Source: Methanosarcinales archaeon
Lineage (GTDB): Archaea > Halobacteriota > Methanosarcinia > Methanosarcinales > Methanocomedenaceae
DNA: 35,649 nucleotides
NCBI GenBank assembly: GCA_021108405.1
Contig: JAIOQW010000338.1
Coordinates: forward strand, 1-35,649
Direction: 5' to 3'
The notes beneath the pieces were generated by a model, which did not search any database, had not been told where the DNA came from, and worked only from the letters and a program-made list of their open reading frames with translations. A program made the position numbers and the translations under genes. This document shows positions 12,722 through 34,628 of this stretch, piece by piece; position 1 is the stretch's first letter; every line of letters starts with the position of its first letter.

Positions 12722-13620
12722 TGGGATGTGATCCGGATCAATCAATAAATAGGGTACTCATTGATGTACCTGCCAACACTTCTATTTTTAAAAAGAAAAT
12801 AATACTCTTAATACCTATACTGGTCATTATTCTGGCAGAAGCACAGCAGTTCACAGGTAATTATGCTTATGCTTTCTGGTTGTATATAATAATCCTGATC
12901 GCACTCTGCCTGGTTACTATTTTTGTTCAGGATATCAATATCTATGCCCCTTACCAGGCATTAATGCTGCTTCCTCTATTGAGATTGGTCAGTATTTCAA
13001 TGCCTGTTTTCTTTGAAATGACATTGTATTCATTCATATTTATTTATTTTCCGCTAATTATACCACTGTATTTTATAGCAGTTCACCAGAAATTCACTGC
13101 GAAACAGATCGGATTAAATAATAAGAAACTATTGATCTATATCCCGGCTGCCTTAATTATAAGTGTCATTATCGCTGCAGGAGAATATTATATCGTACGG
13201 CCTGATTACCTGATCCCTGATCTCTCTTTCTTGAATCTATTGAAACTTTCAATAATAATGTTCATATTTGTTGCAGTTATAGAGGAATTGATCTTCAGGT
13301 CAATATTACAGACACGTCTTGAGGAATATTTTGGTCTGTTCTTCGGACTTATTGTGACCAGTATATTATTCGGTGTAATGCATTCCGGATATGGTACTAT
13401 CTATGAGGTCCTGTTCACTTGTTTTGCAGGGCTTATCATAGGCTATTTGTTCCAGAGGACCAGGTGTCTCTTTTTGATAGTACTTATTCATGGTTCAATT
13501 AATGTACTCCTGTTCGGTGTAATGCCATATATATGGGATGTGTATAATATTGATTTGATTATAGCCCGGTATGCTTCTCTATCTTATATATCCGATCATT
13601 TTTCCTCACTCTTCCTGTGA
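12721..13620 (+). CDS. CPBP-family intramembrane metalloprotease (CAAX-protease-like)
   Basis: This 299-residue polytopic membrane protein has about eight hydrophobic helices. The three ABI/CPBP signatures are present: EELIFR (188-193), FGVMH (217-221) and HGSIN (257-261). They supply the catalytic Glu and the His/Asn residues of the Rce1-like intramembrane protease site, so it should be active. The substrate is unknown; pairing with DUF1616 suggests processing of a surface protein. Its last 62 bp overlap the 3' end of the convergent U32 gene, where both frames encode conserved-looking ends. Confidence 0.88.
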   Translation: MGCDPDQSINRVLIDVPANTSIFKKKIILLIPILVIILAEAQQFTGNYAYAFWLYIIILIALCLVTIFVQDINIYAPYQALMLLPLLRLVSISMPVFFEMTLYSFIFIYFPLIIPLYFIAVHQKFTAKQIGLNNKKLLIYIPAALIISVIIAAGEYYIVRPDYLIPDLSFLNLLKLSIIMFIFVAVIEELIFRSILQTRLEEYFGLFFGLIVTSILFGVMHSGYGTIYEVLFTCFAGLIIGYLFQRTRCLFLIVLIHGSINVLLFGVMPYIWDVYNIDLIIARYASLSYISDHFSSLFL

Positions 13621-14770
13621 CACTTAAACCAACATCCTGTCCTTTTTTGGTTTCTACAATAGATCTATTGTCCTTCATCAGTGACTCTACTTTTTGCTCA
13701 AGATATGTACTTGCCCCTTCAATAATTATCAAATCCCCTACGCAGATGCCTTGCTCATTCAGTCTTATAGCCGCAGCATTTTGCTTTGGGAAGTAATTCA
13801 ATACAATACCAACAGCTTGCCTGCGCATATGTGAAGCATTCATATCCACATCACAAGCCAGTCCATCCGGTCCAGGGGTCCCGAAATAGAATCCAGTAGA
13901 AAATCCCCTGTTATACACTGCACTTAGTTGTTCCTTCCATTTCTGTGCTTTTTCTAGTGTATATGAACCGTTAAAGCAGGCTTCTATTGCATAGTAATAA
14001 CATTTTGATACGGTATTTAAGTATTGTGCATTTCGAAGCCTTCCTTCGATCTTAAAAGCATTCACACCCGTATCTATCAGTTTTGGTATATGCTCGACCA
14101 TACACAGGTCTTTTACGCTTAATAGATATTTTCCTCCAAGTTCTACCAGTGCCCCGTTTTCTCCATGTAAGGTCCATGGCCATCTGCACGGTTGAGTACA
14201 GTCACCGCAGTTACCTGACCCGCCCAGTAGATAAGCTGAAAGGTAGCATCTGCCTGATATTGACTGGCACATAGCACCGTGTATGAACACCTCAAGTTCC
14301 ATGTCAGTATGCTGTCTGATCAGTTTGATCTGCTCTAAATTCAGTTCTCTTGACAGCACCACACGGCTGGCACCCATTGCGCGGTAGTATTCTGCAGCCT
14401 TTGCGTTGGATACGTTTGCCTGTGTGGATATATGCACCCTGAGGCCATGATCTACAGCCTGTTGTATCACAGCAGGATCCCAGGCAATAATAGCATCTAC
14501 TCTGGCACGTTTTGCACTTTCAATGATCTTTGATACTTCCATTAGATCATCAGGATAGATCACTGTATTAACTGCAAGATAGGCTTTAAGACCGCAATCT
14601 CTCACATTTTTGACAAAATCATCCAGATTATCAAGCGTGATATCCCTGGCTCTTGCTCTTAAACTGAATTTGTCAATAGAAAAATATATCGCATCAGCAT
14701 AATCTTTGCATGCAGATACGGCTGCAGGATTTCGTGCTCCTGCAACCAGTTGTGGCATAGGGTAGTGCAT
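13559..14770 (-). CDS. U32-family protein (peptidase U32 / prephenate-dependent hydroxylase-like)
   Basis: This 403-residue protein has the U32 TIM-barrel fold. The Fe-S cysteines of TrhP/RlhA-type U32 proteins are visible: Cys168 and Cys175 (HGAMCQSISGRCYLSAY), the cluster at 188-195 (NCGDCTQPC), and Cys223. Bacterial members hydroxylate tRNA or rRNA using prephenate; 'collagenase' annotations for this family are mostly unverified. The C-terminal beta domain ends in VTGRVRKNDRIYKI. It starts 3 bp after the GAPDH stop on the same strand, so the two form an operon, and it overlaps the CPBP gene tail-to-tail by 62 bp. Confidence 0.88.
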   Translation of the reverse strand: MHYPMPQLVAGARNPAAVSACKDYADAIYFSIDKFSLRARARDITLDNLDDFVKNVRDCGLKAYLAVNTVIYPDDLMEVSKIIESAKRARVDAIIAWDPAVIQQAVDHGLRVHISTQANVSNAKAAEYYRAMGASRVVLSRELNLEQIKLIRQHTDMELEVFIHGAMCQSISGRCYLSAYLLGGSGNCGDCTQPCRWPWTLHGENGALVELGGKYLLSVKDLCMVEHIPKLIDTGVNAFKIEGRLRNAQYLNTVSKCYYYAIEACFNGSYTLEKAQKWKEQLSAVYNRGFSTGFYFGTPGPDGLACDVDMNASHMRRQAVGIVLNYFPKQNAAAIRLNEQGICVGDLIIIEGASTYLEQKVESLMKDNRSIVETKKGQDVGLSVTGRVRKNDRIYKIEKHTGL

Positions 14771-14773
14771 ATC

Positions 14774-15796
14774 CTACTTGCCGATTCCCATTGTTCTATT
14801 AGTCTCTTTTATAGATTTAGCTCCATCCGGTTCAAGTTCGCACATAGCGCGTATTGCATCGATATTCTCAGGTACGACATCCGATTCCTGATGTATTGCC
14901 TGGAAGAAGTATAATTCACCATGATATTTACTGATACTGTCCTTCCATATCACATTTTCAAACATATCACTGCGGCTGCGTCCGAGATCTCTTGCCAGTT
15001 CCATGACCTCGGCTGTACTCTTGATATTCTGGTCTCCTGAAACAAACCTGATCCTCGGCCTGCCTGCATACAGGTCGATGATATCATCCGGCTCGAAATC
15101 TTTGTTCATTTCCACGTTCAATGCATGGAAATGCATGATCGTAGTAGATAATTTCACTGCTACCGTAGCAATCTCAATATGCGGGAGTATGGAATTCACA
15201 TCCGGTCCGTGATGGCTTGGTAAGCTTATAGGATTTGGTATGATGGCGTTTATCGGGCCGCTTTTAATATTGCCCGGGTCTGCTGCCCTTCGCATTAAAG
15301 TGACCCTGGACTTCTTAATACCGTAGGTCTGGTCAAGTGGGTATAATGCTCTTGTTAGCCCTGTTGTATTACAACTGACCACTCTGGTGAAGTCCCTGCC
15401 TATAGCATCGTTATAATTTGCCTCTGAATTGAAACTAAAACCTGCTAACTCGTGGCCTTCGCCGCCCTGCCAGATGGCTTTAATGCCATGTTTTCCATAT
15501 AGTTCCTTATAAGAAGCACCAACTCCTCCGGGCGTACAGTCCACTACCAGATCTACCTTATCCAGCAGTTCTTCCAGAGTACCTGATGTTTCGATACCGG
15601 CTTTATTAAATGCCCCGGTTTTGTCCGAAGATGATGTATATAGATCAAAACCTCTATCAACCGCGACATTTGCTTCAAATGTAGGTCGGGTCTTGACCAC
15701 TCCTATAATCTCCATATCATCCTGGGCAGTCACTGCATCTCCTATTCGTTTTCCTATTGTACCATATCCGTTTACTGCAATTTTTGCTTTTGACAT
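14774..15796 (-). CDS. gap: Archaeal type II glyceraldehyde-3-phosphate dehydrogenase
   Basis: This enzyme interconverts glyceraldehyde 3-phosphate and 1,3-bisphosphoglycerate; in methanogens it works mainly in gluconeogenesis. The N-terminal Rossmann motif is NGYGTIGKR (residues 9-17). The active-site Cys142 lies in VSCNTTGLTR, and DLYAGRPRIRF is typical of the archaeal branch. The length of 340 residues is normal. The ATG at 15796 has GGGG 7 nt upstream. It is followed after 3 bp by the U32 gene. The 125-bp spacer upstream (15797-15921) should contain the promoter. Confidence 0.96.
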   Translation of the reverse strand: MSKAKIAVNGYGTIGKRIGDAVTAQDDMEIIGVVKTRPTFEANVAVDRGFDLYTSSSDKTGAFNKAGIETSGTLEELLDKVDLVVDCTPGGVGASYKELYGKHGIKAIWQGGEGHELAGFSFNSEANYNDAIGRDFTRVVSCNTTGLTRALYPLDQTYGIKKSRVTLMRRAADPGNIKSGPINAIIPNPISLPSHHGPDVNSILPHIEIATVAVKLSTTIMHFHALNVEMNKDFEPDDIIDLYAGRPRIRFVSGDQNIKSTAEVMELARDLGRSRSDMFENVIWKDSISKYHGELYFFQAIHQESDVVPENIDAIRAMCELEPDGAKSIKETNRTMGIGK

Positions 15797-15921
15797 TGTA
15801 ATTCCCCATTGTAGTTATATGATCATTGGACTATATGTTGTTTATGATTTCATGGAATTCGTATTAAGCACGAAAGGGTTGAAAATATTACAGGATACTG
15901 AGCAACCTACAATTATAATAC

Positions 15922-18693
15922 CTAAGAATTAATATTGATATCAATATTATCCTTAATATTATCTTCAATATTAGCCCCGATAATCTGCTCAAGTTGATCC
16001 ATCAAACCATCTACTATCTTCATCTCACGCCCGTAGTTCTCAAGATCTCCCATTTCTAAATAATCCTTAGCATTATTGTAATGGTCTATCGCCCTTATAA
16101 GCAGATCATCCATGGTCTGATTATCTTCACCTGTTACAGTACGAACAGTAGGAATAGTTGACATATCCACACCTACTAATCTTCGTATAGCTTCTTCCAG
16201 TGAATCTTCCATGACGACTTTATTTTCATATATAACCAGGACTTTTTTAAGCTCAGGTATACTGGATGATGTTTGAGCTGAAATATATAGAGGCTCGATA
16301 TAGAGAATAGAATTTCGTACAGGAATGACCAGAAGGTTTCCTCTGATCACATCTGAGCCTCCCTGGCTCCATAGGGTGAGATCCTTTGATATATCTTCAT
16401 CCTGATCGATCAAAGCCTCTATCTGGGCCGGTCCGTAAATTAATTTATCTTTTGAGAACTTATAAAGTATCTTTTCACCATAATAAGGAGGGTCTTGGCT
16501 TACTGCCATCCAGGAAATCATATTATCCTTATTCTTCGGAGTAAAAGGCAGCATCATAATAAATTCAGTTGAGCCATTTAATTCCAGCAGCACATTATAG
16601 GGTTCCATCTGGATCAATGAATCACCGTATTTTTCCTTTGATATCTGCCATTGGTCTTCACGGTTGTAGAATACTTCAGGGACCTTCATATGATAACTAT
16701 TATAAATATGGGACTGTATCAAGAACATATCAGGAGAATATCTCAAATGCTGTTTAAGTTCATCAGGCATCTGATCATAGGGCTTGAATACATCCGGGAA
16801 TATTTTAGAATATGATGTAAGAAGCGGATCCTCTTCCATCATATAATAGGTAATGGTTCCGTTATATGCATTGACCACAGCCTTGGTAGAATCCCTTATG
16901 TAGTTAAGCCGTGTGTTGTCTAACTGCACCTGTTCGGAATAAGGATACCTGTCTGATGAAACAAATGCATTAAGTACCCAGTAGAGATCTCCACTGTCAC
17001 TTAATACAATATAGGCATCAGAGTCCAGTAATAAATACGGTGTGATCAGTTCTATGCGTTCCACTACATTTCGGTTGATGTGCAGTTTGCTGTTTTCATC
17101 TATGCCTGATGATGTAAATATCTTCAGATCACCCAGGGCAATGGTGGCTATAATTTTATTAAAAGATCCCATATTTATCCCACCGGTTCCCGTATAGGTG
17201 GTAACAACATTGGTATCACCACTGGGATAATCGAACTCATCATTTCCTGTGCCTGTAAAGATATATGTATCAGTCTTTTCCCCATAATATATCCTTGGCT
17301 GATTAATAATAAGTGAGGATGTAGTACTGATCGGTGGGATGTTCTTAATATACATTTCAGGCAACCCCTGTTCGATGATATCAGTAGCAGGAGACATTAC
17401 AACTCCAATACCATGAGTATAAAAAATATGTTCGTTCTGCCAGGTACCCGCTTGCAACTGATCATAATATATTTCACGTGCCGAGAGCCATACCTGTGTC
17501 TTGGCGCCGTCAATATTATACCGGTCCACATCCACATCATTAAATCCATAATAGGTACGTATGGCCTGTTTTTGCTGGTAAATGGTATTTAAGGGGCGGT
17601 GGTCCCATAACCTTGCATTGGTAATTGACGGATCATTTAAGATATCAGTGGTCAGGTTATATGTTACAGGGTACTGCTTGATTGTAACATCACGAAGATC
17701 ATAAGCTGTGTTCGTCATGTTGATGTTGTTCGTGATATAGGGTTTTTCCAGTTTAAGTTCATTAGGTGTGACCTTTAACTCCTGTATCAGTACAGTTGCA
17801 AAACCACTCAGTATCCAGATCAATATTATCAATGCGACCATGCCCGGAAGTATCTTTCCTACGGTAAATGTATCCCACCTTCCGGATATTAGTATTCCTA
17901 TTGCACTTAAAAAGAGGATAATAGAGATGATTACCGGAATATATTGACTGATAGTAACATCAATATAACCGGCTCCATAGACCACACCTGTTTCACTGTA
18001 CAGGATATTGTACTTCCCAAGATATATCCTAACAGCGAAAAAGGCAAGAAAACCGGCTAATAAACACCTTAGATTAAAAGGTGGGTGCGTCAGCATTTTC
18101 CAGTTTAAAGTAGCATATAATCCTGCAAGCAGCAGTATTCCAAAAAACAGGAGTGATGAGATGTAACTTAATATTACTTTATAAAAAGGTAGTGAGTATA
18201 CGTAGAATGCAATATCATTATTAAATATTGGGTCAGTTGTACCAAAAGGCATACTATTAAGGTACATTAATATCGTGAACCAGGACCCTGAGATAGATAG
18301 TCCCTGTAATACGGAAAATAATAAAATGAAAATATAGACAGGAAGTGTAGCAGCCTTTATAGCTGTATTTACATCCTGTTCAGGTTTCATATCAATATAA
18401 TCTTCCTGATTCGCAGCAAAATAATGAGACTTCCAGAAAGAGATCACCATACCACCTGATTGCAGGATATTCTTTTTACCTGATCGATAAATTATCAGCA
18501 ATATAAGAGCGAACAGGAGGGTAAAAACAATAAATAACGTGATACTTGCTTTATATTTGACAAGAAAAACATCTGTATATCCAACCGAATCATACCAGAG
18601 GTAATGTAAGATCAGTTTTGCAAAAGATGGTATAAAAAAAATCGCGGAAAAAATCAATATTGTAATAATATTAAATAGATGCTTGTTAGCCAT
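15922..18693 (-). CDS. UPF0182-family large membrane protein
   Basis: This 923-residue protein has about seven to eight transmembrane helices in the first ~310 residues and a long extracytoplasmic part. UPF0182 hallmarks are seen: the N-terminal LHYLWYDSVGYTDVF, the TNNINMTNTAYDL region, WDHRPL, ARLWDHRPLNTIYQQKQAIR, and YYMMEEDPLLTSYSKIFP. A C-terminal coiled stretch ends in Asn/Asp/Ile repeats. The function of the family is unknown; it occurs in actinobacteria, cyanobacteria and methanogens. The ATG at 18693 has GAGG 9 nt upstream. It is transcribed alone toward gap. Confidence 0.93.
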   Translation of the reverse strand: MANKHLFNIITILIFSAIFFIPSFAKLILHYLWYDSVGYTDVFLVKYKASITLFIVFTLLFALILLIIYRSGKKNILQSGGMVISFWKSHYFAANQEDYIDMKPEQDVNTAIKAATLPVYIFILLFSVLQGLSISGSWFTILMYLNSMPFGTTDPIFNNDIAFYVYSLPFYKVILSYISSLLFFGILLLAGLYATLNWKMLTHPPFNLRCLLAGFLAFFAVRIYLGKYNILYSETGVVYGAGYIDVTISQYIPVIISIILFLSAIGILISGRWDTFTVGKILPGMVALIILIWILSGFATVLIQELKVTPNELKLEKPYITNNINMTNTAYDLRDVTIKQYPVTYNLTTDILNDPSITNARLWDHRPLNTIYQQKQAIRTYYGFNDVDVDRYNIDGAKTQVWLSAREIYYDQLQAGTWQNEHIFYTHGIGVVMSPATDIIEQGLPEMYIKNIPPISTTSSLIINQPRIYYGEKTDTYIFTGTGNDEFDYPSGDTNVVTTYTGTGGINMGSFNKIIATIALGDLKIFTSSGIDENSKLHINRNVVERIELITPYLLLDSDAYIVLSDSGDLYWVLNAFVSSDRYPYSEQVQLDNTRLNYIRDSTKAVVNAYNGTITYYMMEEDPLLTSYSKIFPDVFKPYDQMPDELKQHLRYSPDMFLIQSHIYNSYHMKVPEVFYNREDQWQISKEKYGDSLIQMEPYNVLLELNGSTEFIMMLPFTPKNKDNMISWMAVSQDPPYYGEKILYKFSKDKLIYGPAQIEALIDQDEDISKDLTLWSQGGSDVIRGNLLVIPVRNSILYIEPLYISAQTSSSIPELKKVLVIYENKVVMEDSLEEAIRRLVGVDMSTIPTVRTVTGEDNQTMDDLLIRAIDHYNNAKDYLEMGDLENYGREMKIVDGLMDQLEQIIGANIEDNIKDNIDININS

Positions 18694-20372: not shown

Positions 20373-22469
20373 ATGACAATAATGACAGAACAATCATCCA
20401 AACTTGTATGGGAAGAATTCATTAAACAATACTACTGGGAAGAATTACTTTCTCTTGCCGGAATATATCCGGAACGTCGGAGTCTAATTATCGAATTCTC
20501 TGATATTGAAAGATATAATATCGAACTGGCCAATGAGCTTCTCAAAACACCTGATGCGGTCATGAAACATGCCAATGCTGCATTATTTGAGATCGATCTG
20601 CCTATGGATGTAACACTGGACAATACTCATGTAAGAATAACAAATCTTCACTCCAGGATCCAGATAAGGGAACTTAGAAGTGAGAATATCTCCTGGCTGC
20701 TCGGTATTGACGGGATCATCAGAAAGGCTACTGAGGTCAGACCTAAACTGACCACTGCAGCTTTTGAATGCTTACGATGCGGGCATGTTAATTTTGTTCC
20801 ACAGAACCTAAGCATATTCACAGAACCGCTTGAGTGTGACGGTGAGCAGTGCGGCAGGCGCGGCCCGTTCAAACTGCTGGCAAATGAATCCACATTCATA
20901 GATGCCCAGAAGTTGAGGATACAAGAATCACCCGAAGGACTCCGGGGCGGAGAACAACCACAAACACTTGATATTGATATTGAGGACGACCTGGCCGGTC
21001 TGGTAGCACCGGGTGACCGTGTAACAATAACAGGTATACTCAGGAGCCATCAAAGGGTCACGAAAATTGGAAAAAGTACCTTTTTTGACCTGTCACTTGA
21101 GGGGATATCTATCGAGCGTGAGAAAAATGAATTTGATGAGATCGAGATCACACCTGAAGATGAGCAAGAGATCAGGAAAATGGGTAGCTCCAGTGATATC
21201 TATGACAAGATGATATCTTCCATTGCACCCAGTATACTGGGTTATGCAGAGATCAAGGAAGCTATGGCATTGCAGTTGTTCAGCGGGGTACCAAAACATT
21301 TGCCTGACGGAACACGGATAAGAGGAGACATCCATGTACTGCTGGTGGGAGATCCGGGTATTGCCAAATCACAACTGCTGCGTTATGCTTATAAAATATC
21401 ACCGCGAGGAGTCTATACTTCCGGAAAAGGGACTACTTCAGCGGGTCTTACTGCTACTGCTGTTAAGGATGAGTTCGGCGACGGTCGCTGGACACTGGAA
21501 GCCGGTGCACTGGTGCTGGCAGATAAAGGACTGGCTGCCGTAGACGAACTGGATAAGATGGCAAAGGAAGACAGAAGTGCCCTCCATGAAGCTATGGAAC
21601 AGCAGACTATAAGTATTGCAAAGGCTGGCATACTGGCCACCTTAAAAAGCAGATGTGCTCTACTGGGTGCGGCAAATCCCAAATTAGGCCGGTTTGACCG
21701 TTATGAAAATATTGCTCAGCAGATCAATATGCCGCCTGCACTTATATCAAGATTTGACCTGATATTTATCCTGACCGATGAGCCAAGCCCGCAACGGGAT
21801 GGAAGTATTGCCGAACATATTATCAAGGGGCATTATGCAGGAGAGATCAATGCCCAGTACCAAAACTTAAGTTCTTCGAAGATCACCAAAGAGCAGATCG
21901 ATGAGGCAATGAGTATCATTGAACCTACTTATTACCCTGATATGCTTAGAAAATATATTGCCTATTCAAAACGTCACATTTTTCCTGTAATGGAGAAGGA
22001 GGCGAAACAGAAAATAATTAATTTTTATCTTGATCTTCGAAGCCAGGCTAATGATCCCAATTCTCCTATACCTGTTACTGCCAGGCAGCTTGAGGCACTG
22101 GTCAGGCTGGGAGAAGGATCAGCCAGGATGCGCCTTAGCAATTCAATTACTACTGATGATATTGATCGTGTGATCAGGATCGTGAACGAGAGTCTTAGAC
22201 AGGTCATGACCGACCCCGAGACAGGAAAACTGGATGCTGATATGGTCAGTACTGGTATGCCTAAGAGCCAGCGTGACAGGGCCAAGCTTATTCGTGATAT
22301 TATACGTGAAGTACAAGATCAGCATGAAGGAGTTGCTCCAAGGACAGAAGTTATCAAGCAGGCTATGGAATTAGGAATAGAAGAGGATAAAGCAGAAGAA
22401 ATGATAAAGAGACTGAAAAAAGACGGAGCAATATTTGAACCAAGAAATGGTTTATTAAAGATCACTTGA
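20373..22469 (+). CDS. mcm: Replicative DNA helicase MCM
   Basis: This 698-residue protein is the hexameric 3'-5' helicase at the archaeal replication fork. The N-terminal DNA-binding part contains the zinc ribbon Cys133/Cys136...Cys155/Cys160. The AAA+ domain has Walker A GDPGIAKS (326-333), Walker B VDELDKM (Asp391, Glu392), sensor 1 GAANPKLGRFD and the arginine finger ALISRFDLIF. A C-terminal winged helix follows (about 630-698). No intein is present. The ATG at 20373 or 20382 is possible; neither has a clear ribosome-binding site. The stop is 5 bp from the stop of the convergent thioredoxin-CcdA gene. Confidence 0.97.
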   Translation: MTIMTEQSSKLVWEEFIKQYYWEELLSLAGIYPERRSLIIEFSDIERYNIELANELLKTPDAVMKHANAALFEIDLPMDVTLDNTHVRITNLHSRIQIRELRSENISWLLGIDGIIRKATEVRPKLTTAAFECLRCGHVNFVPQNLSIFTEPLECDGEQCGRRGPFKLLANESTFIDAQKLRIQESPEGLRGGEQPQTLDIDIEDDLAGLVAPGDRVTITGILRSHQRVTKIGKSTFFDLSLEGISIEREKNEFDEIEITPEDEQEIRKMGSSSDIYDKMISSIAPSILGYAEIKEAMALQLFSGVPKHLPDGTRIRGDIHVLLVGDPGIAKSQLLRYAYKISPRGVYTSGKGTTSAGLTATAVKDEFGDGRWTLEAGALVLADKGLAAVDELDKMAKEDRSALHEAMEQQTISIAKAGILATLKSRCALLGAANPKLGRFDRYENIAQQINMPPALISRFDLIFILTDEPSPQRDGSIAEHIIKGHYAGEINAQYQNLSSSKITKEQIDEAMSIIEPTYYPDMLRKYIAYSKRHIFPVMEKEAKQKIINFYLDLRSQANDPNSPIPVTARQLEALVRLGEGSARMRLSNSITTDDIDRVIRIVNESLRQVMTDPETGKLDADMVSTGMPKSQRDRAKLIRDIIREVQDQHEGVAPRTEVIKQAMELGIEEDKAEEMIKRLKKDGAIFEPRNGLLKIT

Positions 22470-25682: not shown

Positions 25683-26696
25683 TCATCTCTCTTCAATATC
25701 ATATTCATCATGGATCTCTCCTACTATCTCTTCGAGAATGTCCTCAATAGATAGCAGACCTACGACCTTATTATTTTCATCCGTCACTACAGCGATCTGG
25801 ATGTGTTTTTTCTGGAGCTCTTTAAGAATATATGCGATCTTACGGTCTTTTCTTACTGTTAATATTGGTCTAAGTATCTCCTGGGCTGTTATTTTCTGTA
25901 TCTGGTCATCAGTGAATTTTAACAGGTCCTTTGCATATATCATTCCTATGATATTATCAAAGTGATCTTTCCAGACAGGAAGTCTTGAATGTCCGCATTT
26001 ATTGATCTTCCCAAGGGCTTTACTGAGTATTTCATCACATTCGACAGTTACCATGTCTTTTTTTAATGTCATTGTACCCCTGGCTTTTTCATCAGTGAAC
26101 TCAAACACATTCTGGATATATTCTCTTTCATGATGTTCAATGTCACCTTCTTCCACACCAACTTTTAAGAGAAGTTTAATCTGGTCCTCTGTGACAAAAG
26201 GGTTTTTTATCTTATCTTTTACACCGATAATGCGCAGTACGAAGTTTGTGATCACTGTTAAGAAATAAACCAGGGGGTACAGTACTTTAGTCAGTAATTG
26301 CAGTAAACCTGCTACTCTGAGTAAATAAGTATCAGCATGCCTGATGGCAAAGGTTTTTGGAACGATTTCACCGAAGACAAGAATAATAATTGTCATTATT
26401 CCGGTCGCAATAGCTATACCAGCATCACCAAAGTACCTTAACGTCAGTACTGTACAAAGTACGGATGCTGCCACATTTACTATGTTATTACCCACCAGTA
26501 TTGTAGTAATGAACTTCTCAGGATGTTGCAGTTCCTGATGGATTGTTTTGGCTTTCTTATTACCCTTCTCGGCCAGATGGAGTATCTTTATTCTATGAAC
26601 TCCGATAAATGCAGTCTCAGATGATGAAAAAAAGGCTGAAAAACTTACCAGGATTATTATTATGATCAATTCAACCAATGATATTAGGTCACTCAC
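25683..26696 (-). CDS. DUF21-CBS membrane protein (CNNM/CorC-like)
   Basis: This 337-residue protein has the cyclin-M DUF21 membrane domain (about 1-185; ETAFIGVHRIKILHLAEKGN, GEIVPKTFAIRHAD) followed by two CBS domains (about 205-325; SRLPVWKDHFDNIIGMIYAK, AVVTDENNKVVGLLSIEDIL, EEIVGEIHDEYD). Relatives are linked to Mg2+ or Co2+ transport, with the CBS pair sensing nucleotides. The C-terminal CorC_HlyC domain is absent. The start is GTG at 26696 with GGGAG 11 nt upstream. It stands alone, with the DUF357 gene beginning 73 bp downstream. Confidence 0.92.
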   Translation of the reverse strand: MSDLISLVELIIIIILVSFSAFFSSSETAFIGVHRIKILHLAEKGNKKAKTIHQELQHPEKFITTILVGNNIVNVAASVLCTVLTLRYFGDAGIAIATGIMTIIILVFGEIVPKTFAIRHADTYLLRVAGLLQLLTKVLYPLVYFLTVITNFVLRIIGVKDKIKNPFVTEDQIKLLLKVGVEEGDIEHHEREYIQNVFEFTDEKARGTMTLKKDMVTVECDEILSKALGKINKCGHSRLPVWKDHFDNIIGMIYAKDLLKFTDDQIQKITAQEILRPILTVRKDRKIAYILKELQKKHIQIAVVTDENNKVVGLLSIEDILEEIVGEIHDEYDIEER

Positions 26697-26784
26697 TTCT
26701 ATTTAAACTCCCAAATATACCTGTAACTTCTTACTTCATTCCCAGTTACTTGAATAGATATTACTATTGATTAAATACTTGAAC

Positions 26785-26958
26785 AAAATCCTCGCTAACG
26801 CTCGGATTTTCTTGACTGAGGCTCTTAAAAGAGCCGAAGGTTAGAAGATTCGTAAAATCTTTGTCTGACATTCCAGAGGAATGGAGGATTAGAAGATTCG
26901 TAGAATCTTCGCCTGAGGCGCTTAAAAGAGCCGAAGATTAGAAAATGCAAATCATTTT
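26785..26958. repeat. Modular array of short hairpins, first block
   Basis: The stem-loops follow one another: AAAATCC...GGATTTT, GGCTCTTAAAAGAGCC, GAAGATTCGTAAAATCTTT, CATTCCAGAGGAATG, GAAGATTCGTAGAATCTTC, GGCGCTTAAAAGAGCC and GAAAATGCAAATCATTTTC. They are joined by short linkers such as TTAGAAGATT. Most modules recur in the same order at 27281-27385. Confidence 0.85.
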
Positions 26959-27131
26959 CCAGTGTATATTATCTCATAGATTATATACTATAAAAAAGCA
27001 TGGTTTGGAGTGTATCTCTATTAACGTCACAGGTTTAAAGCATGTATAAACATCAAATACTAATCCATATTAGTACTAATTGTAATTAATCAACAATTAG
27101 GTGACTATTATATTATTTGTTGGTAAACTCA

Positions 27132-27199
27132 ATTAACCGCAGATAAACGCGGATACAATACCTGAATGTCTGCGTTCATTTGCGTTTATTTGTGGTTTT
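27132..27199. repeat. Inverted repeat of CGCAGATAAACGCGG words
   Basis: The left arm starts TTAACCGCAGATAAACGCGG; the right arm is TCTGCGTTCATTTGCGTTTA followed by TTTGTGGTTTT. It forms an imperfect stem of about 28 bp and is a relative of the element at 20020-20117. Confidence 0.75.
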
Positions 27200-27280
27200 C
27201 TATTTTTCACCAATATGAATTGAAACGGTCTCGCAATTAGATAAATTATTTATATTAATATCACTAAGAACTATAAGAAT

Positions 27281-27385
27281 AAAATCCTCGCTAACGCTTG
27301 GATTTTCTTGACTGAGGCTCTTAAAAGAGCCGAAGATTAGAAGATTCATAGAATCTTTGTCCGACATTTTGCAGGAATGAAGGCT
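27281..27385. repeat. Modular array of short hairpins, second block
   Basis: It repeats 26785-26885 with few changes over about 100 bp: the AAAATCC...GGATTTT stem, the perfect palindrome GGCTCTTAAAAGAGCC, the GAAGATTCATAGAATCTTT stem and a degenerate CATTTTGCAGGAATG stem. It runs directly into element copy C. Confidence 0.85.
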
Positions 27386-27387
27386 AA

Positions 27388-27431
27388 GAAAATGTAAAGC
27401 ATATTCAGTATATCAAGTTATACTTGATATA
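27388..27431. repeat. Hairpin-plus-palindrome element, copy C
   Basis: The hairpin part has decayed (GAAAATG...CATATTC), but the palindrome is perfect here: TATATCAAG, TTATA, CTTGATATA (27409-27431). It lies 112 bp upstream of the first gene of the tubulin-like operon, in the same orientation as copies A and B. Confidence 0.75.
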
Positions 27432-27504
27432 CCATACAAAATGGTAGATATTTATTAAGCATAAGTAAAAATGATTGATTAACAAGAATAAATTATTATG
27501 ACTA

Positions 27505-27514
27505 CTATATGATA
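27505..27514 (+). promoter_or_regulatory. Candidate TATA box of the tubulin-like operon
   Basis: CTATATGATA sits 30 nt before the first ATG. Archaeal start sites usually lie about 25 bp downstream of the TATA box, which would give a leader of roughly 10-15 nt. This is judged by position and composition only. Confidence 0.35.
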
Positions 27515-27543
27515 TTTCTACCAAATTGCAAGTATAACGGAGA

Positions 27544-28290
27544 ATGAGAAAATTGTTTCATTCCAAAATCAGTACGATTGGAAATATTAAGTATATTATG
27601 AGAATTATACCTAAGCTAGTATTGCTTTTTTTTTGTTTGGGAGTAATTTTCATAGAAGTATCAGCACTACAAACAGAGATGAAAATAATACCTCCTGAAA
27701 ATCCTAAGGAAGGTGAAGTAATAAATTTTACTATATCTGTTTTCGACTTTCCTCAAGGATATAATCTGTCTTTTGATACTGAGCTGGTGAGTTATGATGA
27801 TAATCCGATATATAACATAACAACAATTAATAAACAAGTTTATGGGAGAAATTTTGAAATCAATACTACTGGCCATGATATCATTACTATTCATATGGTT
27901 GGAAAAGTGCCAAAAATAACCGAAGTAAAACAATATGAAGAAATAACTCTTAAAAAATATTCTAAAACGACCGGGTATACTTATTATAGAATTGAATTAT
28001 TTGATAAAGAAGGAACTATTATTGATACAAATACACAGCCATTTACTATTGATGTTTCTGAGATCGAATTTTTTAACAATAAACTTAGTAAAATACACGA
28101 TGGATGGATAAGAAATTATTTACAGGGATTACACGACAAAGGTCTTGTCAATGAAGCAAATGAACTTGCAGATCATTGGATAGATAATAAAAAGATACCA
28201 GTACTTTGGTTTTTTATCTCACTCATAGGTGTGGCAATAATATTTTTTATCATTGGTATTAGAATAGGATATAGGAGGGAAGAATTATGA
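27544..28290 (+). CDS. Bitopic surface protein, first gene of the tubulin-like operon
   Basis: This 248-residue protein has an N-terminal signal sequence (hydrophobic core IIPKLVLLFFCLGVIF, ending VSALQ), an extracytoplasmic beta-rich domain (about 45-175; EMKIIPPENPKEGEVINFTI, Ig/CARDB-like in appearance), a short helical linker (180-215), a transmembrane helix (220-240) and the cytoplasmic tail RIGYRREEL. The ATG at 27544 is almost on top of a GGAG; ATG 27598 would give a shorter, more classical signal peptide. The family is not recognised. It overlaps the tubulin-like gene by ATGA, so it is probably a membrane receptor or anchor for the same system. Confidence 0.75.
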   Translation: MRKLFHSKISTIGNIKYIMRIIPKLVLLFFCLGVIFIEVSALQTEMKIIPPENPKEGEVINFTISVFDFPQGYNLSFDTELVSYDDNPIYNITTINKQVYGRNFEINTTGHDIITIHMVGKVPKITEVKQYEEITLKKYSKTTGYTYYRIELFDKEGTIIDTNTQPFTIDVSEIEFFNNKLSKIHDGWIRNYLQGLHDKGLVNEANELADHWIDNKKIPVLWFFISLIGVAIIFFIIGIRIGYRREEL

Positions 28291-31200
28291 ATAATAGAAA
28301 AGATAAGAAAACAGCTTTGCAGGTACCATCCAATTTGACTATTGTTGCCATTGGAGGGTGTGGAAAAGGATTAACATCAGAGATTTGCGAGCATGAATGG
28401 TTCTTAAAATATTATTTTAAAGATGGCTATCACTTAAAGATTTATACATTAGATACAGATGAAAATGAGAAAGAGCAAGATGAAGAACGAATAAAAGAGA
28501 TTGATCAAAGAATTAAGGAAATTGGAGGAGGGAGTAATGTAGAAACTTCTGTACTTTATCTTCCAAACTTAGCTACTATCTCACATGTTTCTGATTTAGC
28601 CAGTAAAGAGATAGCAGATAGAATTAAGGATAGAAATATAGAACCAAAGGTAGATGTGTGGTGGCTAAATGATGCGGAATATGGTATATCATTTGATGAC
28701 CTTAAGAAAATTGATCCTTTTTTGATTGATGATTTTGGCGGTGGAGTACATAGAAGAAGAGCTATTTCAAAGGCAATTTTTTATAAAGTCATAAGTGAAG
28801 GAGAAAGTTCAGGTTTTCCTACATTCAGTAGAGGTTCGATAGCAATAATTGTTGGTCTCGGTGGTGGAACTGGTTCTGGAATGGTGATAGATTTAGCAAG
28901 ATATATAAGGAGCTTGAGAGGGCCAGAGGCAGAAATATGGCTTTATGCAATTCTACCAACCACCGAAGAAGGCGAAAAGGAACAGCTTAATGCTGCAATC
29001 GCTTTAACCGAGCTTGAATATTTAAACCTGAAGGAGAGCCTCTTTAATTGTATTATATTAACATCTCTGGGACCCACTGGATTTAAAAGAGGTGAAGAGG
29101 CAAGGAGAGAAGTACAAGAATTTGATTCGATATTTCCTTATATATTTGTGAATTCTCTCCATACAGTAAGAAGAGATCTTGGTATCTTTGATGCAAGAAA
29201 ACCATTTTCATCTTTTATTTTTGCTGATGCTCATGTTATAGAATACCCAATTGAAGAACTTCGCAAATTAAAGTCTGAATTTGAAAAAGCAATCAATGAA
29301 ATAAAGAAGATCACTGACAACAGGAAAGAATTAAACCGGACTATAAGAGATTTTTTAGATAAGGCAAATCAGAGAAATGAAGGAATACCAACGAAAGAAA
29401 ACATAGATTTTGTAAAAAAAGAAATTGGAAACATGGAGAAAATATGGCAAAACGAGATTGGAGAGCTGCTTCAATATCAGACTATAGAAGGAATATTATA
29501 TTATATCAGTAACAATATACCTTTAGATATATTTCCGGATAAAACAAAGAAATATGATGATCTAACTGATTACCTCTCAAAACTAAAAGCCTTCTCACAA
29601 AGTGTTAAAGAAGAAGAATTAAGAGATGAAAGTGATAGAAAGCTATACAGGATAATTCCGGAAGCATTAGAAACTATTGAAGATACTGCAAAAATATTGA
29701 AGCGAATTTCCGGAATCGAAGATGAAATTCAACGAGTAGTATTAAATGAAGTATTAAGAGGCAAAGAAAACATAATATCATCAATAGGGGATCTACAAGG
29801 TAGAGTTAATATTCTTAGAGATGACATAAGGAATCTGGAAGATGAGATAGATATATGTAATAAAAAATCAAAGAAAATTGATAATCAGAAATCCGGAACT
29901 GAAAAAACTGTCAATAATAAGCTGGATGATATAGGAACAGACATTAATTCATTTACCAGTCTGGATATAAAAATCAGAGAGGTAGAGGGTCGGCAAGAAA
30001 ATCTCAAGATGCATATTGAGGAAATAATTTACAAATGTAAGACTGGTGAAATAAAAGGGGAAGATGAAGTAACTTATTTGCAATCCGCAGGAGTTGCTAA
30101 ACTTGAAAGTGAGATTGATTTGATTTCTCGCGAAATAGGTGAAGATTTAGAGGGATTAAAGTCTTTAATTTCGGCTATAGCTTTATATTATTACTATAAT
30201 TACAAATTAGAAGGGCTTGAAAGCAGAAAAATTCCGCAAAAGGCTATAGATGCTATTATAGGGAATGTAGAGAAGAGGAGAAGGAAATATGAAGCAATGA
30301 TAAGAGATAAAGAGAATCTCATAAAAAGAAATGCAAAATACTGGAATATTGCAATTCATAGCCCATTTGAACTTACTGTTGCAGATAATTTTTTAATTGA
30401 AGGGCTCAATAAAAAGATGGGAGATATCAGAAACAGGATGATAAATTCAATAAAATCTGATTTTGAAATTGAAGATGAAGAGCTTCATGAATTAGAAGAT
30501 ACTTTAAAACAAAATGATAAAGGAAAAATCAGAGGAGAATTAAGAGAGCAATTAATCAATATCTCTCTTCTAAGGGGAGGATATTATACTAAAAAAGAAG
30601 AAATTGAAAGTTTCATTAATAGTAAAAATGAAATAAAAAAGAAAAAAGAAATGGATTTAAAGGCTATGGATATGATTAATGAACTTGCAGAGGAAACATT
30701 CAATTATAGAAGAGATCTTAGCAGGCATTATGAGTTATATTATAATAATTTTGTTATAAGAAATGAAAATTTCACAGCTAGTAGTAAAACTATTAAAGGT
30801 CTATATTCAACAAGATTTGGTGAAATTAATCCAAAGGTGCTATCTCTAATAAGTGATGAATCAGAGATGGGAAACCTTGATAGGGATGAAAATGGAAAGA
30901 AAGAACTCGATAAACTTATTAGTGAGATCAAATCTTCATATACTCAACTGATTGATAATTATAAACTTGGAATTCATAACCTGACAATACCATTTGGCAC
31001 TACTGAAAGGTGGACCTTTGGAAAGGCCGGATTGGTAATATCTTCTACATCATCTTACATATCCAGTGAATTAGCAAGCAGTAAGAATAGTAAGGCAATT
31101 ACAGAAGAAATCAAAGAAACATTGGTATTAAGAAATAATAATGATGCAAGATTGGTTACACATAATTATGCAAAACCATGGGATATATCCTTAATATTCT

Positions 31201-31460
31201 TTGCAGCTGCAAGTTTCTTGGATAACATATCACCATTTACTGCTGGCGGAGGATATAGGGAGATGTATGAAAGGGATAAGGATAATATTTTACATCATGT
31301 ATTGTTGCTTCAACATGGTAAGTATATTGTTAGAAAGAAGCTATTGGAGCTTAATAAAGCCGGAGAAATAGCAAAGAGGGAGATGGGGGGTGAAAAGGTA
31401 AACAGCGAAATTCTAGATCTATATGAAGAAAAAGATATAAGAGGATCACTAACAGAATGA
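28287..31460 (+). CDS. Large tubulin/FtsZ-superfamily protein with long coiled-coil region
   Basis: This is a 1057-residue cytoplasmic protein. The N-terminal ~325 residues have tubulin-type GTP-binding features: the first loop IGGCGKG (22-28), DFGGGVHRRRAISKAIF near 145-160, the tubulin signature GLGGGTGSG (190-198) and the following PTTEEGEKEQLNAAIALTEL, typical of Tubulin_2/FtsZ-like families. Residues about 325-880 are Lys/Glu-rich, predicted coiled coil. A C-terminal domain (about 890-1057) contains TIPFGTTERWTFGKAGLV and HNYAKPWDISLIFFAAASF. I could not find the T7 loop NxDxx(D/E) used for polymer-dependent GTP hydrolysis. Genes on both sides overlap it by 4 bp. The best guess is a filament-forming or membrane-remodelling protein. 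Confidence 0.85.
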   Translation: MNNRKDKKTALQVPSNLTIVAIGGCGKGLTSEICEHEWFLKYYFKDGYHLKIYTLDTDENEKEQDEERIKEIDQRIKEIGGGSNVETSVLYLPNLATISHVSDLASKEIADRIKDRNIEPKVDVWWLNDAEYGISFDDLKKIDPFLIDDFGGGVHRRRAISKAIFYKVISEGESSGFPTFSRGSIAIIVGLGGGTGSGMVIDLARYIRSLRGPEAEIWLYAILPTTEEGEKEQLNAAIALTELEYLNLKESLFNCIILTSLGPTGFKRGEEARREVQEFDSIFPYIFVNSLHTVRRDLGIFDARKPFSSFIFADAHVIEYPIEELRKLKSEFEKAINEIKKITDNRKELNRTIRDFLDKANQRNEGIPTKENIDFVKKEIGNMEKIWQNEIGELLQYQTIEGILYYISNNIPLDIFPDKTKKYDDLTDYLSKLKAFSQSVKEEELRDESDRKLYRIIPEALETIEDTAKILKRISGIEDEIQRVVLNEVLRGKENIISSIGDLQGRVNILRDDIRNLEDEIDICNKKSKKIDNQKSGTEKTVNNKLDDIGTDINSFTSLDIKIREVEGRQENLKMHIEEIIYKCKTGEIKGEDEVTYLQSAGVAKLESEIDLISREIGEDLEGLKSLISAIALYYYYNYKLEGLESRKIPQKAIDAIIGNVEKRRRKYEAMIRDKENLIKRNAKYWNIAIHSPFELTVADNFLIEGLNKKMGDIRNRMINSIKSDFEIEDEELHELEDTLKQNDKGKIRGELREQLINISLLRGGYYTKKEEIESFINSKNEIKKKKEMDLKAMDMINELAEETFNYRRDLSRHYELYYNNFVIRNENFTASSKTIKGLYSTRFGEINPKVLSLISDESEMGNLDRDENGKKELDKLISEIKSSYTQLIDNYKLGIHNLTIPFGTTERWTFGKAGLVISSTSSYISSELASSKNSKAITEEIKETLVLRNNNDARLVTHNYAKPWDISLIFFAAASFLDNISPFTAGGGYREMYERDKDNILHHVLLLQHGKYIVRKKLLELNKAGEIAKREMGGEKVNSEILDLYEEKDIRGSLTE

Positions 31461-32842
31461 AGATTTATGGCACACAACGAAGGATACTGGAAGTAGTTAC
31501 TTTCGTTTCCGGTTTAGTTTTATCTTTATTTCTTATTTATATTTCAAATTATCTTTCGATAATAGAAATTCCACACACAATAGCAGTTTCTATTTCCTTT
31601 CTTTATGGGATATTGATGCTAATTGCTATTGCAATGATATTTGAAGAGGATTCAAGGGTTGCAGGAATACTGCTTGTTTCAATATCCATACCTTTATTAT
31701 TGTATTTTGCAACAAACGAATATATAGTATTTAAAGGTATATTAGCTGGGATCTGTATTGGTTTTATACTCAGTCTATATGCACTATTTGAAAATAGATT
31801 TGATATTCTTGCAAGGATTTCACGAGCAATAGTGACTGGTTTTTTCTTTATAATGATTGTGTATATTTGTTATGGGTTTGTAATGTTGATATACTCCTTT
31901 TCAATTATGCTTATAAAAAATTATATAATATTATTTATTATAGGTGGTGTATTATATTTATTATTGCAAAAGATGATAATTGGAATTAACAGTAAGGATG
32001 TTTTTATTTTCGGTCCGCCGAGCTCTGGAAAGACATATCTTCTACTTGCATTTAATGATTACTTTATTAATTTTTTCCATGGAACACATAATGAAGAAAT
32101 ATTTTCCGCACATGATGATGCCAGGGATCTTAAAATTGAGAATATGCTAATAACTGTTGAAAGAGGAGAAAGGATAAGAAGCACATATTCTGATGAGATA
32201 GCTATGTATACTTTAAGAGGAAAAAAAAAAGGTATATTCCCAATTGAACTTACAATGATAGATTATGGAGGTGAGCAAACTGAAAAAATACAACAAAGAT
32301 ATCAAGACATAGTATCTGATCTAACTGAAAATCTTAAAGAAAATGAATTTACCATCAAATATAAGATCGGAACCATGCAATTCTTGAAAAGTATTAAAAA
32401 AAAAACCTTTGAAAAAACACCGGAGTTAGCAGATAAAGTAGCCTCAGCATACCTGATAAAAAATTTGAAAAGTGCAGGGAAAATAATCTTTTTGATAGAT
32501 GGAAAATTAATATCAGGTTTTCATGAAAAAAATAAGGAAGAATTAATTGGATTATTTGGTTATTACGGAAGGATAATAGAAAAACTTGGAACCAATAAAA
32601 AATATGTGCTGGTAATTACAAAAACAGACGATTTTTCAGATTTATTAAATATTTCCGAAAAATCAGAAAAATCATTAGAAATAGAAAAAGACATTTATAA
32701 GATGTTCCAATCAATTGATACTTTTAAATCACTCGTACACAAATGTAAAAACCCATTATATTTATTTGCAGTTAGTGCAGATGCTACAGGCAGTCTGAAT
32801 CAAATATATCCATGGCAGGTTGGTCAAGTTGTCAATATTTAA
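31457..32842 (+). CDS. Polytopic membrane protein with P-loop GTPase domain
   Basis: This 461-residue protein begins with about six transmembrane helices (about 13-33, 41-61, 65-85, 90-110, 119-144, 149-171), followed by a cytoplasmic GTPase domain. Motifs are Walker A/G1 GPPSSGKT (186-193), a G3-like MIDYGGE with Asp269 (DxxG variant DYGG), and G4 TKTD (388-391) after LVIT. The G3-G4 stretch is unusually long (about 115 residues) with a Lys-rich helical insert. It may belong with the TRAFAC-type 'double-GTPase' (DO-GTPase) proteins or the distinct GTPase partnered with FtsZ-like proteins. It overlaps the tubulin-like gene by 4 bp and the next gene by 23 bp. Confidence 0.82.
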   Translation: MKIYGTQRRILEVVTFVSGLVLSLFLIYISNYLSIIEIPHTIAVSISFLYGILMLIAIAMIFEEDSRVAGILLVSISIPLLLYFATNEYIVFKGILAGICIGFILSLYALFENRFDILARISRAIVTGFFFIMIVYICYGFVMLIYSFSIMLIKNYIILFIIGGVLYLLLQKMIIGINSKDVFIFGPPSSGKTYLLLAFNDYFINFFHGTHNEEIFSAHDDARDLKIENMLITVERGERIRSTYSDEIAMYTLRGKKKGIFPIELTMIDYGGEQTEKIQQRYQDIVSDLTENLKENEFTIKYKIGTMQFLKSIKKKTFEKTPELADKVASAYLIKNLKSAGKIIFLIDGKLISGFHEKNKEELIGLFGYYGRIIEKLGTNKKYVLVITKTDDFSDLLNISEKSEKSLEIEKDIYKMFQSIDTFKSLVHKCKNPLYLFAVSADATGSLNQIYPWQVGQVVNI

Positions 32843-34628
32843 TTATGGAATTTACGATACAAGCGGGAGATTATTAAAAGGCCATTTAAAAGGATATAGG
32901 GATTTGGCATGGCAGTTAGACGTAAATATGGTTGCGTTATACTTTGAATCGAAAAATGAATATGTCATTTTAGGATGCCGTTTTATTGTACAGATAATAG
33001 GAGGAAGAGTAGAAAGAGTACTTTTTATTGTAAAATATCCGGTTAAAGAAATAAATTCAGATACGATATTGCAGTTGTATAAAAGAGCTGTAGAAGAGAT
33101 AGAGAGTTTAAAAGGAGTGAAATATAATGTCCTTGGACTTTGGAAAACCGGAGACATAGAAGATATTATTGATATCGAGACTATTGACAATATCTATGAA
33201 ATTATAGTTGGCAAACTTATTTCTAATGAGCAAATTGTTGTGAAATCATCAGATTTATCTCAAGGTATTTCCTTACTTGCAAAGGTAGTCCTGGAATTAA
33301 AGTCTGTATTATCTTTAGGTTATAAATTTATTATTTCAGAATCAGTCTTTAAGGCAGACCTGTTGATACAACCAAAAGAGGAACATGTAGACATTGACAT
33401 TGACAATAACCATGGCATAATGAAGTATGAGGAAAAAAGTAGATTTACGAAATTATATGGTATTTATAAAGAACTTATTTTCACACAAGGTGGAGACTAT
33501 AGCTTTAGGAGCAGAAATGGACTTTTAGATGAAATAATCAAGAGAGATGTTAAAGATTATGCTGATGATATTTTCAATCTCTATCAATATGACTTGGATA
33601 GACTTTTACTATTTAGTACCAGAAATCCGGATATCTTAATCCTTGTGATTAATCGGATTATTAAAGAGAATCTGGATATAAGTGGAATTCGGGATGAAAA
33701 TGCTGTGAAAATCATAGAGGAGCTAGTGCCTATAATTTGTAGTGAATCTATTAGCAGCACTATTGAAATTTTCTTGGCAAGCGTCTATAAAAATATAAAA
33801 GATTCGGATAAGAGGGAAATACAAAAATATTTGATAAAAAAAAATATTTTTTTGGAAGAAATTGTGCATGATGTTGTGAAACGAATTGCGAAAGAAAGAG
33901 ACAGTGAATTGTTATATATATTGGCTTGTAGGTCTTTTATTGATCCTGGAACTGCAAAAGAGTTTGATAGGATTGTAAAAAATGCTATAAATTCATTAAA
34001 TCAAAAAGAAGTCTTAAATTTCATAAAATTTTTACTTGATGAACCTGAGTTGAAGCCGGATGAAAGTGGGAAGATACTTATCAAGGCACTTTATAGCGAA
34101 ATTATTGGATATGGAAGTTCGATGAAGTTCACTAACAAGCACAAGGAAAAGTTAAGAGAATTTGGAATTACAACGCCTCTTATGGAAACGCAAAAGGGGG
34201 AGATAGAAATTAATAGAGCAACTAAGAAGGTATTTACTGTAATTATTATATTAATAATCTTCATTATAGGAATTGGAATAGGTGAGCATTACGAACCAAG
34301 CAATATAATTATGAATTATTTTAATACCTCATCAACTTCCAAACAAATCACCTCACCACCTGTAATAATAAATAATACTCCAGAAGAAGATGTGCGTAGT
34401 ACTATAGGCGAAGTAAAAATTTTTAGTGTTACTGCCAACCAATCAGTGAATATTACCTGGTTAAATAATGAATCACAGGTCCAACAGACAAACGAAAGTG
34501 TAACAAAAGCATCTTATACAAATAAATCTGTTGCTGCCGGTGTATGGAATATATCAGCGAAAATAGAAAATGCTAATGGAACAGACATCAAGACATGGGA
34601 ATGGCATGTGAACTCTACATCAACGTAA
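32820..34628 (+). CDS. Bitopic protein with cytoplasmic body and archaeal surface Ig-like domain
   Basis: This 602-residue protein has a cytoplasmic N-terminal domain (about 1-125; NYGIYDTSGRLLKGH, ARC-like beta pattern), a long all-helical part (about 200-460), one transmembrane helix (471-488; VFTVIIILIIFIIGIGIG) and an extracytoplasmic domain (about 520-602). That outer domain, with NQSVNITWLNNESQVQQTNE and GVWNISAKIENANGTD, is of the type found in methanogen S-layer and other surface proteins and has several N-glycosylation sites. The start is TTG at 32820, or TTG 32829; both lie inside the end of the GTPase gene. It probably ties the GTPase/tubulin machinery to the cell surface. Confidence 0.78.
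   Translation: MVKLSIFNYGIYDTSGRLLKGHLKGYRDLAWQLDVNMVALYFESKNEYVILGCRFIVQIIGGRVERVLFIVKYPVKEINSDTILQLYKRAVEEIESLKGVKYNVLGLWKTGDIEDIIDIETIDNIYEIIVGKLISNEQIVVKSSDLSQGISLLAKVVLELKSVLSLGYKFIISESVFKADLLIQPKEEHVDIDIDNNHGIMKYEEKSRFTKLYGIYKELIFTQGGDYSFRSRNGLLDEIIKRDVKDYADDIFNLYQYDLDRLLLFSTRNPDILILVINRIIKENLDISGIRDENAVKIIEELVPIICSESISSTIEIFLASVYKNIKDSDKREIQKYLIKKNIFLEEIVHDVVKRIAKERDSELLYILACRSFIDPGTAKEFDRIVKNAINSLNQKEVLNFIKFLLDEPELKPDESGKILIKALYSEIIGYGSSMKFTNKHKEKLREFGITTPLMETQKGEIEINRATKKVFTVIIILIIFIIGIGIGEHYEPSNIIMNYFNTSSTSKQITSPPVIINNTPEEDVRSTIGEVKIFSVTANQSVNITWLNNESQVQQTNESVTKASYTNKSVAAGVWNISAKIENANGTDIKTWEWHVNSTST

Follow-up and report, generated by a model that had tools for sequence, protein, structure and literature searches.

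As listed in Table 1, a run of four genes lies on the plus strand of the window (the whole stretch of DNA analysed here, 35,649 nucleotides of a 3.67-Mb genome). The second of them, at 28287-31460, is a real ORF encoding 1057 amino acid residues. Start and stop of successive genes overlap at 28287/28290, 31457/31460 and 32820/32842, and the four genes, which encode a transmembrane (TM) protein, an FtsZl1 protein, a six-TM GTPase and a single-TM protein, are a translationally coupled set.

Table 1. Features of the FtsZl1 operon in the window.
Feature	Position	Strand	Basis
Upstream partner, secreted/membrane protein, 248 aa	27544..28290	+	
FtsZl1, FtsZ/tubulin-like core (predicted GTP-binding), residues 1-322	28287..29252	+	Tubulin_2; Tubulin PF00091 (sub-threshold); hhalign to archaeal FtsZ over T4-H5
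FtsZl1, T1-like loop IGGCGKG, residues 22-28	28350..28370	+	Conservation in 38 relatives
FtsZl1, T4 loop GGGTGSG, residues 192-198	28860..28880	+	Superfamily signature
FtsZl1, T7-like position D297-D302 (DLGIFD)	29175..29192	+	Placed by motif order, not structure
FtsZl1, helical stalk / discontinuous coiled coil, residues 323-830	29253..30776	+	Heptad periodicity; low-confidence AlphaFold2 helices
FtsZl1, C-terminal conserved domain, residues 831-1057, and stop codon	30777..31460	+	Conserved residues
Polytopic P-loop GTPase, 461 aa	31457..32842	+	
Downstream partner (ORF4), 602 aa	32820..34628	+	

The original prediction of a tubulin-family protein at the second gene was borne out by a Pfam search, in which the 1057-residue product matched Tubulin_2 (PF13809) with an E value of 3e-12 and 46.8 bits against a cut-off of 27. 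Tubulin (PF00091) was matched at 6e-7, just below the model cut-off. The same Tubulin_2 profile was matched by 20/20 sampled FtsZl1 family members. Among solved structures the top sequence matches were FtsZ chains, which aligned weakly (E 0.011) and around the GGGTGSG loop only. The product is almost certainly a Tubulin_2 protein of the FtsZl1 family, which was first described by Makarova and Koonin in 2010 (PMC2875224) with an alignment that took in Methanosarcina acetivorans. Both its family membership and its architecture were observed directly in the present analysis.

Like the published FtsZl1 proteins (PMC2875224), which have an FtsZ-like N-terminal domain, an extended coiled coil and a mostly helical C-terminal domain (Huta_2051, for example, has 1051 aa), the window protein has an FtsZ-like core with GGGTG(S/T)G, a long coiled coil and a C-terminal domain. 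Its T6-H7/T7 elements cannot be identified with confidence, nor could the 2010 authors assign them in the family. The archaeal FtsZl1 genes described there adjoin a divergent, membrane-associated P-loop GTPase and co-exist with true FtsZ; both hold here, since a membrane P-loop GTPase is the neighbour and canonical FtsZs above the curated cut-off are encoded on two other contigs of the same genome (C27 and C61). Because of these canonical FtsZs, the product of 28287-31460 is not the division FtsZ. A vWA-domain partner is found in the majority of described FtsZl1 operons but is not universal (PMC2875224); in contrast to those operons, the window operon has no vWA, kinase or OmpA match, and none of its four genes matched vWA in Pfam at E 1. 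The host of the window gene is an ANME-2 archaeon. In a 2023 survey, Tubulin_2 proteins were classed as divergent and 'FtsZ-like' and were left out of the main reconstructions, and relatives in deposited plasmid records are already annotated as 'tubulin-like' domain-containing protein.

Like canonical FtsZ, CetZ, TubZ and tubulin, FtsZl1 has T1-like and T4 GTP-binding loops and an H4-S5-H5 segment. It differs from them in its length (1057 residues against about 400), in a core without the T7 motif NxDxxD/E, and in having no match to FtsZ_C or a tubulin C-terminal domain (Pfam, E 1). The loops IGGCGKG and GGGTGSG were both found at the residues originally reported for them. In the T1-like loop, G23 and G26 are kept in 38/38 relatives and G24 and K27 in 37/38. 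Judging from these motifs, the N-terminal core would bind GTP.

No NxDxxD/E lies between GGGTGSG and the helical region of the window protein, nor does any of 38 relatives have one 60-160 residues past GGGTGSG. The earlier claim that this motif is missing thus stands for the core but not for the whole protein, which has a single literal N.D..[DE], NLDRDE at residues 863-868. As a displaced T7, NLDRDE was rejected: it lies in the C-terminal domain, is unconserved (its first residue and spacing differ among relatives), and is expected by chance, at least one N.D..[DE] occurring somewhere in 53% of shuffles of the protein. The absence of a recognisable T7 loop is genuine, but it is no oddity of this gene, having been described for FtsZl1 proteins at large (PMC2875224).

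By motif order, S6 falls at about 253-260, F279-D280 look like the start of a shortened H7 (F279 in 37/38 and D280 in 33/38 relatives), and this putative H7 is followed by a short loop that contains D297 and D302. The D302 position is an aspartate in 30/38 relatives, and the motif reads xDIxxxD in the clade closest to the window protein. From its sequence, this loop may be a degenerate T7. FtsZl1 would then be a conventional cytomotive FtsZ/tubulin that polymerises with GTP hydrolysis, D302 completing the next subunit's active site. The resemblance of F279-D280 to an H7 start and an aspartate at about the right place favour such a protein. We consider it improbable, as several relatives lack the D302 candidate, H7 would fall 4-7 residues short of its length in FtsZ, and no H8-like helix is evident after the D302 loop. 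The profile comparison points the same way: hhalign of the FtsZl1 profile to archaeal FtsZ stopped at H5, no global alignment of the two profiles was obtained, and a forced full-length version was not credible past H5. AlphaFold2, run on an alignment of three sequences, gave a mean pLDDT of 38.5 for residues 1-420 and of 43 for the whole protein, too low for a superposition on FtsZ, TubZ or CetZ.

Residues 323-830 are nearly all helix in this low-confidence AlphaFold2 model, with pLDDT of about 70-80 at 511-560 and 711-790. Heptad periodicity was scored simply from the hydrophobicity of the a/d positions rather than with a published coiled-coil predictor. The heptad excess of residues 323-830 was matched by 0/300 shuffles, and the scores of the core and the C-terminal domain did not stand out in the same kind of test. 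Among relatives, 34/38 had an excess that 0/60 shuffles reached. A coiled coil of about 550 residues had been proposed; the region is indeed largely helical and its heptad periodicity is significant, but the significant stretches (322-367, 483-586, 598-634, 703-747 and 758-786) sum to only about 260 residues, so the coiled coil is discontinuous. The separate C-terminal domain of the original prediction was confirmed in so far as it has its own conserved block from W965 to R1016 (W965, D979, N980, G989, Y994, H1004, G1011 and R1016). Helices are predicted in this domain, with pLDDT below 50 all through 796-1001. The conserved block, together with the frequent D302, provides candidate catalytic elements. 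We consider it slightly better than an even bet that FtsZl1 is a GTP-binding scaffold with a partly coiled-coil helical stalk and a conserved C-terminal module.

TM segments were predicted in all three partners of FtsZl1, and none of these partners matched a Pfam family above cut-off. The upstream protein has an N-terminal hydrophobic, signal-like segment at residues 21-39 and a C-terminal TM segment at 221-239, and its external domain is predicted to be beta-rich. The downstream protein has one TM segment, at 471-489; its C-terminal domain, rich in N-x-S/T sequons, is probably external. A GAP1 identity was rejected for this ORF4, with no GAP1 match in 13 members of its family and no GAP1-N2 in the genome. 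The 461-aa GTPase has six predicted TM segments within residues 10-162. An alignment placed its Walker A (GPPSSGKT) at 186-193, a Walker B-like DYGGE at 269-273 and TKTD at 388-391, all of which are kept in most relatives. Because these three motifs are intact, the neighbour is plausibly an active nucleotide switch.

The neighbouring P-loop GTPase possibly supplies the energy for FtsZl1. In the extreme form of this idea, FtsZl1 would bind GTP as a structural switch only, and its neighbour would do all the work. The lack of T7 in the core of all 38 relatives and the intact motifs of the neighbour are consistent with such a division of labour. On the other hand, the acidic residues of FtsZl1 itself, namely D302 (often) and E228, E232, E242 and E244 (nearly always kept in relatives), could allow hydrolysis, and we hold this form of the idea at about one chance in four.

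The gene order TM protein, FtsZl1, TM GTPase, ORF4 recurs at many of the sampled loci. At the sampled loci, the upstream TM protein family was represented by 33 ORFs adjoining FtsZl1, the GTPase by 41 and the downstream protein by 22 adjoining the GTPase. The four-gene set is conserved in many Halobacteriota, among them methane-metabolising archaea and many Methanosarcinaceae. Tubulin_2 was present in 87/392 genomes of the phylum, and the distribution of FtsZl1 is patchy, because only 8/60 near relatives have a homologue detectable by protein search.

The nearest named relative of the window protein is encoded by a metagenome-assembled genome (MAG) of ANME-2 cluster archaeon HR1, with 95% identity. 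In a tree, the window protein grouped with a 71% identical one from a MAG labelled Methanophagales, and families f4 and f26 form the clade adjoining this pair. The latter gene (L015:1221-4394, on a contig assigned to Methanophagales, ANME-1) is the nearest non-congeneric homologue and has the same upstream partner; it represents horizontal transfer or a binning error. In one genome, two FtsZl1 genes lie within a few kb of each other (L085:4771-8025 and 13071-16358); the second has diverged strongly and has no aspartate at the D302 position. Four FtsZl1 relatives were found on archaeal plasmids. That of the Methanohalobium plasmid pMETEV01 (L125) lies beside pilin-like, PGF-pre-PGF and S-layer genes, and that of the Halorubrum plasmid p117 (L126) beside Hsp70 and vWA genes. 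A viral origin of FtsZl1 is unsupported, as the patterns used picked out no relative among 2.9 million viral contigs, and none turned up in 50,697 phage records.

The operon also recalls the GTPase-centred conflict (anti-virus/stress) systems of Kaur et al. 2020 (PMC7159879), which group DO-GTPase, tubulin with a C-terminal coiled coil, FNIII and TM components. As in those systems, a TRAFAC-type GTPase with a Walker B glutamate and TM helices accompanies a tubulin fused to a coiled coil and extra TM proteins. FtsZl1 would in that case be an effector-scaffold, and the TRAFAC 'double GTPase' would control how tubulin-coiled-coil proteins assemble near the membrane. The top Pfam match of the neighbour GTPase is DO-GTPase2 (E 2.8e-5), with the Walker B glutamate kept; its 24.3 bits fall under the cut-off of 27, so that unlike the published systems the window operon has no above-threshold DO-GTPase match. 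Nor does it have GAP1 (a search of the whole genome gave no GAP1-N2 match even at E 10) or any recognised variable effectors, and PADLOC gave weak P-loop similarities only. The patchy distribution and the location of some relatives on plasmids, one beside Hsp70 and vWA genes, speak for a conflict system, but the gene set is stable across families. A role of this kind is a minority possibility, which we put at roughly a quarter.

Upstream of the operon lies a dispersed repeat, about 115-130 bp long and with the palindrome CTCTTAAAAGAG at its core, in two long copies and one partial copy (26781-26910, 26913-26958 and 27277-27406). At least 46 matches to it occur in the genome (40/317 candidates scored), and it looks like a miniature repeat family. 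The operon region (26690-34628) has a G+C content of about 0.30-0.33, compared with 0.36-0.45 in most of the window, and its GC skew is much stronger than in most of the window; both are consistent with recent acquisition. An archaeal MCM replicative helicase gene lies at 20373-22469, with UPF0182, U32 peptidase, NosD-like and DsbD-like genes near it, and this neighbourhood is ordinary chromosomal context.

The most economical reading of these data is a membrane-bound FtsZl1 scaffold, which is the same as the membrane-remodelling role proposed in 2010 from gene context (PMC2875224). We prefer it because of the Tubulin_2 match, the FtsZl1 architecture, the conserved and overlapping gene order, the TM segments of the partners and the canonical FtsZs elsewhere in the genome, and we give this mechanism a probability of about 0.5. 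FtsZl1 would be a cytosolic scaffold under the control of GTP, kept at the inner side of the membrane by the co-translated six-TM P-loop GTPase. The two single-pass proteins with external domains would tie it to the cell surface, so that it could help deform or organise the envelope. Counting against this scaffold are the lack of a vWA partner in the operon and the Halorubrum plasmid relative beside Hsp70 and vWA genes; the latter neighbours fit a conflict system equally well. The literature searched contained no experimental work on any FtsZl1 protein.

A more elaborate and rather unlikely arrangement is that the four genes form an envelope-spanning machine with two GTPases, in which the T7-less core assembles via a non-canonical interface and the stalk couples it to the surface. 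The stalk would link assembly, via the six-TM GTPase, to the surface domains, and the D979/N980/R1016 block of the C-terminal domain or D302 would perhaps be a catalytic element.

The original reading was correct on a real gene, but the features that it called unusual are published FtsZl1 traits, and 28287-31460 is a further example of that family, in which the missing T7 is already a known trait. Few branches of the FtsZ/tubulin superfamily are as diverged and as widespread as FtsZl1. The membrane-remodelling prediction of 2010 is directly testable, because the four-gene set occurs in many Methanosarcinaceae, which include genetically tractable strains.
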